From positions 1 to 12,340 of the forward strand of contig JAQBTZ010000011.1 in NCBI GenBank assembly GCA_027624675.1: DNA of 12,340 bases. Direction: 5' to 3'. Origin of the DNA: a bacterium (GTDB lineage Bacteria > Patescibacteriota > WWE3 > 2-01-FULL-39-13 > JAQBTZ01). How positions within the stretch are numbered: the first letter of the stretch is position 1; every line of letters begins with the position of its first letter. The position numbers and the translations under genes are program-made. This document shows, piece by piece, positions 2,237 to 6,430 of the stretch. The notes beneath the pieces were generated by a model. That model made no database searches and was not told where the DNA came from. It was given only the letters and a program-made list of their open reading frames with translations.

Positions 2237-3352
2237 ATGTTAATCAAACCAGAGGTAGAAAAATTTGCAAAAATCAAGGTTGTAGGTGTTGGTGGTGGAG
2301 GTGGAAATGCCATTAACTCTATGATAGCTAATCTTCAGATTAGGGGTGTTGATTTTATGGCAATAAATACAGATGCGCAGGCTTTATCGGTTAATGAGGC
2401 AGGAGTTAAGATTCAGATTGGTAAAGAGTTAACAAAAGGTTTAGGTTCTGGCGCAAGACCAGATATTGGAAAAGATGCTGCACAAGAATCAATTGCCGAG
2501 ATAAAAGCAGCACTTGAGGGTAGCGACATGGTCTTTATAACAGCAGGTATGGGTGGTGGAACAGGAACAGGTGCTTCTCCAATTATAGCTCAGATTGCAA
2601 AAGAGGTAGGAGCATTAACAGTAGGAGTTGTTACAAAGCCATTTCATTTTGAAGGAGCTCGTAGAACTGAAAATGCAGAAGCAGGAACAAGAGCTTTAAA
2701 AGAACAGGTAGATGCATTAATTACAATTCCAAACCAAAAATTATTAGATGTTGTTGAGAAAAAGATGAGTATGATGGATGCCTTTAAGGTTGCAGACAGT
2801 GTTTTAGGTGAAGGGGTACAAGGAATATCCGATTTAATAGTTATGCCAGGTTTAGTTAATGTTGACTTTGCAGATGTTAGGACAATTATGACAAACAGTG
2901 GTAGTGCAATGATGGGTATAGGAACAGCAAGTGGCGAAAACAGAGCAGAAAATGCAGCAAAAGCAGCAATTTCATCTCCACTTTTAGATGTTTCGATAGA
3001 CGGAGCAACAGGAATACTAATTAATGTAATAGGTGGTAGAGATTTAGGGCTACACGAGGTAGATGCAGCAGCAAGAATAATTGGAGAAAAGGCAAGTCCT
3101 GATGCTGAGATAATTTTTGGAGCAACAATGGATGAGGCGTTAAACGATCAGATAAAGATAGTTGTAATTGCCACAGGATTTGACGAAGGGATAAATAATA
3201 GTTATAAAACATTTAATAACCCATTAGTAAAAGATGGTACACCACAGCAAGCTGACAAATTTAGAGAAACTGATGCAGAGAAAAAGAAAGAAGATGAAGA
3301 AAGGCCAGATGATAGTAAATTTGATATCCCTGCTTTTTTAAGAAATAGATAA
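2237..3352 (+). CDS. ftsZ: cell division protein FtsZ
   Basis: FtsZ is the tubulin-like GTPase that forms the cytokinetic ring at midcell. The 371 residues fit the family. Visible are the N-terminal glycine run ([15 protein letters not shown], about 15-29), the tubulin signature GGGTGTG (106-112), the T7 synergy loop NVDFAD (208-213) that completes the neighbouring subunit's GTPase site, an acidic, lysine-rich linker (about 325-360), and the conserved C-terminal peptide [10 protein letters not shown], which binds FtsA. Presence of both FtsA and the tail peptide supports a working FtsA-FtsZ tether. The ATG at 2237 has a leaderless promoter in place of a Shine-Dalgarno sequence. Unlike the usual ftsA-ftsZ pair, the gene has its own promoter after an 842-nt gap. 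Confidence 0.98.
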
Positions 3353-3389
3353 TACCCCATTTTATTTATAATTTTCTAATTACTTAGTC

Positions 3390-3401
3390 CACCTTAAGGT
3401 G
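3390..3401. terminator. 12-bp perfect palindrome after ftsZ (weak terminator or operator)
   Basis: CACCTTAAGGTG (3390-3401) is a perfect palindrome that could fold as a 4-bp stem with a TTAA loop, 38 nt after the ftsZ stop and 44 nt before the first NrdR-like site. The bases after it (ATTTACAT) are not a real T-tract. Termination is possible but weakly supported. Confidence 0.25.
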
Positions 3402-3444
3402 ATTTACATACTCGATACTAAATACTTATTTTACCCCTTGACCA

Positions 3445-3460
3445 ACAATTTGAATTTTGT
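3445..3460. promoter_or_regulatory. distal NrdR-box-like site
   Basis: ACAATTTGAATTTTGT has dyad ends ACAA and TTGT and matches the NrdR-box consensus (acaCwATATATwGtgt) at about 11 of 16 positions. It starts exactly 31 bp upstream of the better site at 3476. This is the spacing of three helical turns typical of paired NrdR boxes. Alone it would not be convincing; the phasing makes it so. Confidence 0.55.
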
Positions 3461-3465
3461 TAATT

Positions 3466-3497
3466 TTGATTATACCTACTATATATTGTGCTATGAT
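3466..3497 (+). promoter_or_regulatory. nrdR promoter with extended -10, predicted leaderless
   Basis: TGC directly precedes TATGAT (3492-3497), a good extended -10, with a looser TTGATT (3466-3471) 20 nt upstream as the -35. The -10 ends 7 nt before the A of the nrdR ATG (3504), so the message should start at the ATG. The proximal NrdR box occupies the spacer and the TGn element, so bound NrdR would block polymerase. Confidence 0.65.
3476..3491. promoter_or_regulatory. proximal NrdR box
   Basis: CTACTATATATTGTGC matches the NrdR-box consensus at 13 of 16 positions, including the core CTATATATTGTG. It lies between the -35 and the -10 of the nrdR promoter and overlaps the TGn. Together with the site at 3445 it forms a tandem pair 31 bp apart. 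This indicates that NrdR represses its own gene and the nrdJ gene after it. Confidence 0.75.
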
Positions 3498-3503
3498 ATA
3501 CAA

Positions 3504-3950
3504 ATGAAGTGTATATATTGTGGTTTTGCAGACACTAAGGTTGCAGACAAACGAACATCAGAACAAGGAGATATAAGTCGCAGACGCCGAGAATGTTTAA
3601 AATGTGGTAAGAGATTTACTACATATGAAAAGGCGGAAAAGGCAGAAATCTTTGTTATAAAAAAAGATGGTGAGAAAAAAGAGTTTGACCGAGAAAAACT
3701 GGAAAAAAGCATAAAAAGTGCTTGTGGTAAAAGACCAGTTAGTGAAACTCAGATCGTAGATATCTTAGATGATATAGAGATGCGGTTAACAAATCGAAAC
3801 ACAAATATTGTTTCGACAAGTGAGCTTGGTCGTTTGGTTTTAACACGAATCAAAAAACTAGATTTAGTTGCATACATGCGATTTGCAAGTGTATTTCTGG
3901 ATTTCGAAGATTTAGAAGATTTTCAACAAGAAATTTCTAAATTAAAGTAA
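3504..3950 (+). CDS. nrdR: transcriptional repressor NrdR
   Basis: NrdR senses dATP and ATP and shuts off ribonucleotide reductase genes by binding paired NrdR boxes. From ATG 3504 the protein has 148 residues, close to the usual 150. It begins MKCIYC, with zinc-ribbon cysteines C3, C6, C31 and C34 and the basic stretch SRRRREC typical of the DNA-binding part. The ATP-cone domain runs from about 49 to 139 (FVIKKDGEKKEFDREKLEKSI and onward). The frame is open upstream to 3399, but the conserved MKC start, the promoter and the NrdR boxes all fix the start at 3504. nrdJ follows after 56 nt with no clear terminator, so the two are probably co-transcribed and autoregulated. Confidence 0.97.
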   Translation: MKCIYCGFADTKVADKRTSEQGDISRRRRECLKCGKRFTTYEKAEKAEIFVIKKDGEKKEFDREKLEKSIKSACGKRPVSETQIVDILDDIEMRLTNRNTNIVSTSELGRLVLTRIKKLDLVAYMRFASVFLDFEDLEDFQQEISKLK

Positions 3951-4006
3951 TAATTTTATGTCTTAATGGGTATAAGTACTTGCCCCTATAGAAAACTGTC
4001 GCAAAA

Positions 4007-6430
4007 ATGAACGAAAATAATTTAGAGGTAAAAGTTAATTCTAAAACTACACCTTATTCAACCAAAGATTTACTTTCTGGAAAAGTAACAAGCCTTCCGA
4101 TTTCTGATAATGCGTTAAAAGTATTTGCAAGGAAATACTTAGTTAAAAACGAAGATGGACAGTACACAGAAACCCCAGAAGACGTATATCGACGAGTAGC
4201 AAGAGCTTTAGCACTTGTTGAAAAAAACTATGGCAAGTCTGATGAAGAAATTGAGAAATATGAAAATGCATTTTACGACATAATGACAAAGTTTGAATTT
4301 ACACCAGCTGGCAGAACATTACAAAATGCAGGGTCTCCAACCTCGATTATCGCAAACTGTATAGTTTTAGATTTTGAAGATAGCATGGAGGGTATTTTTA
4401 AGACATTAGAAGAGGCAAGCCAACTACAACAGCAAGGTTCTGGTTTAGGTTTTGCATGGCACCTACTTCGACCTGCTGGATATAGTGCTAAGCGAACAAT
4501 GGGTAGAGCAAGTGGTCCTGTTTCTTTTTTAAAGGTTTTTGACACAGCATTTGGAACAATCAAGCAACAGGGTAGGCATGGAGCTAATATGGGAATAATG
4601 AACGTTGATCATCCGGATATATTAGAATTTATTAATTGTAAAAGGAAAGAGGGAGAGATAAGAAATTTTAATATCTCAGTAGGATTAACTGACCAGTTTA
4701 TGAAACAGGTAAAAGAAAAATCTGATAAGCCATGGGTTTGTAATTGGAAAGGTGTTGAGATGTTGCCAAGACAGGTGATACGTGATGATTACGGTTCGAT
4801 TAAAGAGGTAAAAGACGTTGAGATTACAGCAACCAAACTTTTCGATTTATTAGTAACAGCTGCATGGACAAACGGTGAGCCTGGAGTTATATTTCCTGAT
4901 ACGGTAAATGACACTAATCCATTACCAAAGCTTGGTAGAATAGAGGCTTGTAATCCTTGTGGCGAGCAGATGTTACATGCTGGAGATGTTTGTAATTTAG
5001 GTTCAATTATATTAGATAAATTCGTTATTGATGGGGCTATTAACTGGGAAAGAATGGGTTATGTCGTTCGCAATTCTGTGCGAATGTTAGATAACGTTGT
5101 TGATATGTTTGACCACACAGTAGAACGAGTTCAAGTAATGAGTCAGAACAATAGACGTTTAGGACTAGGTGTAATGGGATTTGCAGATATGCTTTATGAT
5201 TTAAATCTAGGATACGATACAGAAGAAGGAAGACAGGTTGCAGAAAAAGTAATGAGCTTTATAACAAACGAGGCACATAAAACTAGTAATCAGCTTGCAG
5301 AAGAAAAAGGAGTGTTTCCAAACTATCGTTTAAGTGTTTTTGCAGAACAAGGCATAAAGATGAGAAATGCTGCACTAACTACAGTAGCTCCAACTGGTTC
5401 TATTTCAATGCTTTCAGATGTTTCAAGTGGAATAGAGCCTTATTTTTCACTAGCATACTCTAAGAAAATGATGGCCGAAGGAAACGAAGAAGACCTATTT
5501 TATATCAACAGACATTTCTTACAGACACTAAAGGATAGAGGAATCTTTTCTAATGAATTAGTTGCGAAAGTCGTAGCAAATGGCGGAAGTGTAGTCGGAA
5601 TGAAAGAGATTCCACAAGATATTCAAAAGGTTTTCGTAACATCAATGGATATATCCGCAGAGGCTCATATACGTATGCAAGCTACTTTTCAGAAATATAC
5701 AGATAATAGCATCTCAAAAACTATTAATTTTAATAACTCCGCAACAGTTGAGGATATGAAAAATGGATACATGATGGCCTGGGAGCTTGGTTGTAAGGGT
5801 TGTACGGTGTATAGAGATGGAAGTCGTGACCTACAGGTTTTAAGTACAGAAAAGACAAAAACAAACACAACAGTTGATAGTAATGAGGTAATAAATAAGT
5901 GGTTATCAAGTCAGCAAGAGTTTATTGCAAGACCAAGAAAGATGAGTGGAAATACGTATAAGCAAGAAACTCCATTTGGTGATTGTTATGTAACTATTAA
6001 CTCTGATGAAAATGATAATCCATTTGAGATATTTATTACAATAGGAAAGGCAGGTTCTGATATTTCAGCATTTGCAGAAAGTTTAGGTAGAATGATCTCG
6101 CTTAACCTACGAATGCCATCTGCAATGACAATAGATAAAAGAGTACGAGAGATAATCGATAATCTAATTAGGATAGGTGGTTCTAACTCTGTTGGGTTTG
6201 GTAAAAATAGAGTAATCTCGTTACCTGATGCAGTTTCAAGAGTTTTATTAGAGCACATAGGCGCTGTAAAAGTTGTAGAACAGGAAACAGAAACGGGGAC
6301 ACAAAAAGCTGTTAAGCATGAAAAACAGTTAGGGCTACTTGCTGATATTTGTCCAGAATGCGGAGTTGCATCTTTTGTAAAAGAAGAGGGCTGTCAAAAA
6401 TGTTATACATGCGGGTATAGTAAGTGTTAA
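4007..6430 (+). CDS. nrdJ: adenosylcobalamin-dependent ribonucleotide reductase (class II)
   Basis: This enzyme reduces ribonucleotides to deoxyribonucleotides for DNA synthesis, using adenosylcobalamin to make the thiyl radical, so no oxygen or radical subunit is needed. The 807 residues include the redox cysteine C118 (ANCIVLDF), the stretch QQQGSGLGFAWHLLRPAGYS typical of NrdJ, the active-site NPCGE (N316, C318, E320) and the partner cysteine C329 (VCNLGS). APTGSISMLSDVSSGIEP is the phosphate-binding loop, and WELGCKGCTVYRDGSR follows. The C-terminus carries a zinc-ribbon-like tail (CPECG ... CQKCYTCGYSKC) with the mobile cysteines. I see no N-terminal ATP-cone, so allosteric control through that domain is absent and NrdR provides the visible regulation. 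ATG 4007 has no Shine-Dalgarno sequence. TATAGA at 3987-3992 could be a minor local -10. Confidence 0.96.
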   Translation: MNENNLEVKVNSKTTPYSTKDLLSGKVTSLPISDNALKVFARKYLVKNEDGQYTETPEDVYRRVARALALVEKNYGKSDEEIEKYENAFYDIMTKFEFTPAGRTLQNAGSPTSIIANCIVLDFEDSMEGIFKTLEEASQLQQQGSGLGFAWHLLRPAGYSAKRTMGRASGPVSFLKVFDTAFGTIKQQGRHGANMGIMNVDHPDILEFINCKRKEGEIRNFNISVGLTDQFMKQVKEKSDKPWVCNWKGVEMLPRQVIRDDYGSIKEVKDVEITATKLFDLLVTAAWTNGEPGVIFPDTVNDTNPLPKLGRIEACNPCGEQMLHAGDVCNLGSIILDKFVIDGAINWERMGYVVRNSVRMLDNVVDMFDHTVERVQVMSQNNRRLGLGVMGFADMLYDLNLGYDTEEGRQVAEKVMSFITNEAHKTSNQLAEEKGVFPNYRLSVFAEQGIKMRNAALTTVAPTGSISMLSDVSSGIEPYFSLAYSKKMMAEGNEEDLFYINRHFLQTLKDRGIFSNELVAKVVANGGSVVGMKEIPQDIQKVFVTSMDISAEAHIRMQATFQKYTDNSISKTINFNNSATVEDMKNGYMMAWELGCKGCTVYRDGSRDLQVLSTEKTKTNTTVDSNEVINKWLSSQQEFIARPRKMSGNTYKQETPFGDCYVTINSDENDNPFEIFITIGKAGSDISAFAESLGRMISLNLRMPSAMTIDKRVREIIDNLIRIGGSNSVGFGKNRVISLPDAVSRVLLEHIGAVKVVEQETETGTQKAVKHEKQLGLLADICPECGVASFVKEEGCQKCYTCGYSKC

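Follow-up and report, generated by a model that had tools for sequence, protein, structure and literature searches.

NrdR often controls its own gene (PMC9110341). In Streptomyces coelicolor, nrdR and nrdJ form an operon with NrdR boxes in its promoter, as at the locus described here, and the DNA-reading residues of that repressor are conserved in the protein encoded here; the two differ in that an NrdR tetramer has been seen on two boxes in S. coelicolor, whereas here one box is strong and its partner is weak or lies elsewhere (PMC9110341). The nrdRJ genes of Cutibacterium (Propionibacterium) acnes also bear a likeness, with an nrd-box pair overlapping one of two promoters, but that pair was called by motif search and the part of the report available to us does not mention a leaderless nrdR (PMC3848588). 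In Escherichia coli nrdAB, the upstream partner box proposed at first bound weakly, and what its authors regard as the true pair consists of the strong box and a non-canonical one on the downstream side of the promoter (PMC12176259). A weak partner upstream together with a true one downstream therefore has a precedent, although the target is nrdAB and box 2 is not stated, in the accessible part of that report, to lie in coding sequence (PMC12176259). Leaderless mRNA in Patescibacteria is mentioned in passing or in a reference in the available portions of two papers (PMC12641178, PMC6851277), and our literature search found no paper covering both NrdR and Patescibacteria. The switch at the present locus is of a known kind. 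The analysis extends a well-studied dNTP-sensing switch, with its box spacing and promoter layout, to a small-genome phylum. Like E. coli nrdAB, the case is also an example of a box pair being mispredicted.

The window, by which we mean the whole analysed stretch of 12,340 nt, comes from a patescibacterial genome of 726 kb in 126 contigs that is 84% complete. Its gene order is ftsA, a small ORF, ftsZ, nrdR, nrdJ, ileS, rodA, rplU and rpmA, with lepB on the opposite strand; rplU, rpmA and lepB were named by eye from their sequences. The nrdR gene (3504..3950, + strand) starts with ATG at 3504 and encodes a 148-aa protein with a Zn ribbon and an ATP cone. It matches TIGR00244 at 156.7 bits, above the cut-off of 124.65, and its domains match PF22811 (65.3 bits) and PF03477 (71 bits), both above the curated cut-offs. 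Residues D15, R17, R26-R29 and R37, whose DNA-reading roles come from work on S. coelicolor (PMC9110341), are present; residue 12 is K in 38 of the 94 loci compared below, the window among them, and R in the S. coelicolor protein. Downstream lies nrdJ (4007..6430, +), encoding a B12-dependent class II ribonucleotide reductase (TIGR02504, 632.6 bits; PF02867). No other gene of this genome, complete to 84%, matches PF02867, a family to which class III reductases do not belong. The upstream neighbour of nrdR is ftsZ (2237..3352, +; TIGR00065, 424.4 bits). The small ORF between ftsA and ftsZ (1472-1870, 132 aa) matched nothing in either NCBIfam or Pfam at E 0.001.

We compared 94 nrdR loci, namely the window and 93 relatives, the window being the sole member of its own family in the set. 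A scan among named organisms returned seven loci (Clostridiales, Clostridia, Firmicutes, Micrarchaeota) that were 45-52% identical, and none was used. A two-box model with free spacing between 18 and 59 was fitted to the 94 loci after seeding with the NrdR-box consensus. The fitted spacing was 32 bp in 54%, 33 bp in 21% and 31 bp in 13%, so that 88% of the mass fell at 31-33 bp, compared to at most 3% at any of those spacings in a single shuffle. Posteriors of the pair model were often high in shuffled loci too (>0.9 in 45/94 shuffled vs 66/94 real) and were therefore dropped as evidence, leaving the concentration of spacing as the feature relied upon. Box pairs 31-33 bp apart were found upstream of nrdR in 56 of the 93 relatives, including all five NrdR-bearing members of the same order (L003-L007). 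A box matrix was learned from these 56 score-filtered pairs with the window left out. In box 1 of the relatives G13 is near-invariant (97-99%), while roughly three in four have C4; the leave-one-out minimum of the box 1 scores, 3.2 bits, was discarded as evidence because its value is set by the score filter on both boxes. At least 50 of the 94 loci, L003-L007 included, have an nrdJ-like gene downstream of nrdR in the same orientation; this count is a lower bound, many loci extending just 1.9 kb downstream.

The 16-mer CTACTATATATTGTGC at 3476-3491 (+), at the nrdR promoter, is in all probability a genuine NrdR box. The consensus for such boxes is ACACWATATATWGTGT, and we reproduced against it the 13 of 16 matches given in the first-pass annotation, which had paired this site with a second 16-mer at 3445-3460; the coordinates of both, with starts 31 bp apart, agree with the sequence. 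In this AT-rich genome the frequency of 13/16 matches is by itself at chance level (the 726 kb hold 26, and 25 matches to the reversed pattern used as control), so it is the promoter position of the site that carries the weight; about 0.005 such matches are expected per 150 bp (26/725,728 x 150). By the relatives' matrix the box scores 15.9 bits as box 2 and 14.0 as box 1, and C4 and G13 are both present. Its sequence is not unique, since six distinct sites score at least 15 bits in 465 kb of the genome and it ranks third among them. This rank and the parity with the reversed pattern are what could be said for a chance match and an nrdR that is not autoregulated here; we hold that to be very improbable, given that no other + strand site of the window scores higher than this 16-mer and that its position is the one at which boxes occur in the relatives.

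Autoregulation of nrdR-nrdJ is well supported by these comparisons, and the operon proposed earlier for this small genome gains from the box pairs upstream of nrdR in the 56 relatives. We consider it likely that nrdR and nrdJ form an autoregulated operon under dATP-dependent repression by NrdR, acting through the strong box and a weak second site. When dATP is plentiful, an NrdR tetramer would bind 3476-3491 and would also contact the second site about three helix turns away; the bound protein would cover the promoter, and nrdR and nrdJ would both be shut down. Sequence comparison supports the strong box and an operon of a conserved type; that dATP throws the switch and that a second contact is needed are inferred from NrdR of other bacteria. 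At the level of the whole genome, 47 box pairs exceed 10 bits in 465 kb, the best of them in L180, where several hits crowd, and neither the upstream nor the downstream pair at nrdR is outstanding among these.

The upstream half of the pair in the first-pass annotation is probably wrong. The proposed distal dyad, ACAATTTGAATTTTGT at 3445-3460 (+), matches the consensus at 11/16 positions by hand count, and carries A and T in place of C4 and G13, so that both G-C pairs read by NrdR are absent. Its score of -5.1 bits is equalled or bettered at 7.2% of window positions, and the dyad looks like chance; it is probably a non-working or decayed box. These G-C pairs are read by the protein in the S. 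coelicolor NrdR structure, and inverting such pairs lowered binding at least 50-fold (PMC9110341). The 31-bp distance falls inside the range of 31-33 bp found in the relatives, but the distal member in the window is not recognisable as a box. Its spacing, and its occupation of the box 1 place relative to a TTGACC motif, speak for a functional partner at 3445-3460, which the missing G-C pairs and the many equally good positions nevertheless make improbable. Mutation of one box makes binding by E. coli NrdR 530- to 1000-fold weaker (PMC12051234).

A different candidate for the second box lies within the gene. The site AGTGTATATATTGTGG at 3508-3523 (+) occupies codons 2-7 of nrdR, 32 bp downstream of the strong box, and is the partner that the pair model chooses for 3476-3491. 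It matches the consensus at 12/16 positions, keeping G13 and having G at the C4 position; the first-pass annotation does not list it. Its score of -0.8 bits is reached by 0.94% of window positions, or about 3% when three spacings are allowed, and is the highest at that place among the 94 loci, the next being -7.8. The codons concerned encode the first zinc-binding CxxC (KCIYCG), in which the window has Ile at a site that is Pro in 84/94 loci. The Ile and the choice of codons together give the top box score possible for the peptide (P = 0.078 by codon usage), and with Pro instead of Ile the maximum would be -5.55 bits. Among the relatives, the last 7 nt of box 2 fall within the nrdR ORF in L075, and in L047, L067, L031 and L038 box 2 stops 1-3 nt short of the ORF. 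The site is suggestive as a second box, a weak candidate that is slightly favoured over the upstream dyad as partner of the strong box. It is a more doubtful proposal that the second box has moved into nrdR, with codons 2-7 doubling as operator for the gene's own zinc ribbon and the message being leaderless; were that so, the repressor would bind the DNA encoding its own DNA-binding domain. Neither 3445-3460, which lacks C4 and G13, nor 3508-3523, which has G13 only, is a full second box, and the fact that neither scores positive counts against the explanation by autoregulation through two sites.

Two promoter signals in different registers surround the strong box. The extended -10 whose spacer and TGn are, in the first-pass annotation, covered by the proximal box is present as TGC-TATGAT (3489..3497, +); it ends 6 bp before the ATG, with a predicted start at or near the ATG. 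Its hexamer TATGAT (3492-3497) follows the strong box directly (gap 0) and starts at -12, a leaderless-type placement, and would make the strong box equivalent to box 1. The other signal, absent from that annotation, is TTGACC (3438..3443, +), which occupies the place of the relatives' -35 and would make the strong box equivalent to box 2. At 17 bp from it lies a weak -10, TAATTT (3461..3466, +), with 3/6 matches, below the cut-off used in both the survey of relatives and the tally described below (TAnnnT, at least 4/6). The usual layout of the relatives' nrdR promoters is TTGAC, box 1, -10, box 2. TTGAC occurs 3-9 bp before box 1 in 33/56 relatives (0.026 per locus at control offsets), and TTG at -7..-5 of box 1 in 43/56. 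A -10 directly follows box 1 with a gap of 0 in 15/56 and of 2 in 11/56 (control, 1.0 per position), and follows box 2 in one relative at each of these gaps. Measured against this layout the window has TTGACC, a -10 with 3/6 matches and a box 1 that is not recognisable. A plain sigma-70 scan of 3300-4100 found two sites, TTTACA-18-TATTTT at 3403-3432 being listed, and neither candidate promoter was among them; shuffles gave 3.4. No terminator was detected in a scan of the same region.

From the relatives' layout one would expect the message to have a leader. Under it, transcription directed by TTGACC and TAATTT would begin near 3473, with the strong box lying over the start as box 2, box 1 at about 3444-3460 would have decayed, and the mRNA would have a leader of about 30 nt. 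This is a finer reading of the autoregulation explanation and compatible with it, and we regard it as plausible, if somewhat short of an even chance. The frequency of TTGAC and TTG beside box 1 points to it, as does the 12-nt gap between strong box and ATG, which is usual, box 2 ending at most 20 nt before the ATG in 23/56 relatives. TAATTT, however, has only 3/6 matches to TATAAT, the distal site scores poorly and a much better -10 stands directly after the strong box. In a tally of the signals the downstream pair reached 16.0 bits and the upstream pair 15.4. The site in codons 2-7 adds almost nothing, the downstream sum being 15.9 bits without it; when second boxes are left out, this value for the strong box with its own -10 compares with 22.8 for the strong box as box 2 with TTGACC, a sum in which neither a -10 nor the spacing is counted. 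With second boxes left out, then, the upstream promoter comes out ahead; the tally does not take in how common leaderless starts are in this genome, a point in favour of a promoter at the ATG. A leaderless start of nrdR at the ATG, as judged from these signals, has about even odds, because the -10 at the ATG has a rival in the conserved -35 further upstream and because the reduced tally favours the upstream promoter. The two could also coexist in tandem at a distance of about three helix turns, with a box at the spacer of each promoter and the strong box serving both, the upstream promoter giving a short leader and the downstream one a start at the ATG. Such an arrangement is seen in L055, where TTGACC-17-TATTAT spans box 1 and, 33 bp on, TTGACA-17-TACGAT spans box 2 and ends 6 bp before the ATG, leaderless in form; L003, of the same order, has TATAAT directly after box 2. 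Taken together, the 56 relatives nevertheless do not show -10s after box 2 more often than expected, so the tandem layout is rare, and we think it rather unlikely in the window, a little more so than an operator within codons 2-7.

A leaderless nrdR would be ordinary in this genome and phylum, where leaderless-type -10 elements are common. Among ORFs of the window genome with at least 60 bp upstream (from 61/126 contigs, the start being taken mechanically as the first ATG), 38/187 have a -10-like hexamer at -14..-12, vs 6.2 expected. The intended control, ORFs with less than 20 bp upstream, gave a smaller count at a similar ratio (6/107 vs 1.9 expected). Corresponding values were 22/163 (4.5 expected) in stretches of six order relatives, 23/161 (4.5 expected) in another 18 genomes from the phylum and 1/9 (0.1 expected) in two others of the class. 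For nrdR itself, a hexamer with at least 4/6 matches stands at the leaderless-type place in 16/94 loci, window included; of the 56 relatives that have clean pairs, just L028, L036 and L055 show it. In the genome, the order and the 18 phylum genomes, leaderless-type -10 elements were about five- to sixfold over expectation, and there was little Shine-Dalgarno signal.

Some further observations concern relatives of the same order. NrdR has no match in G003, a genome given as 100% complete, whereas the five other order relatives each have one. L004, L005 and L007 have GTGTCC in common after box 2, upstream of nrdR, and in L004 and L005 this is followed by a GC-rich stretch that by eye seems capable of forming a hairpin.
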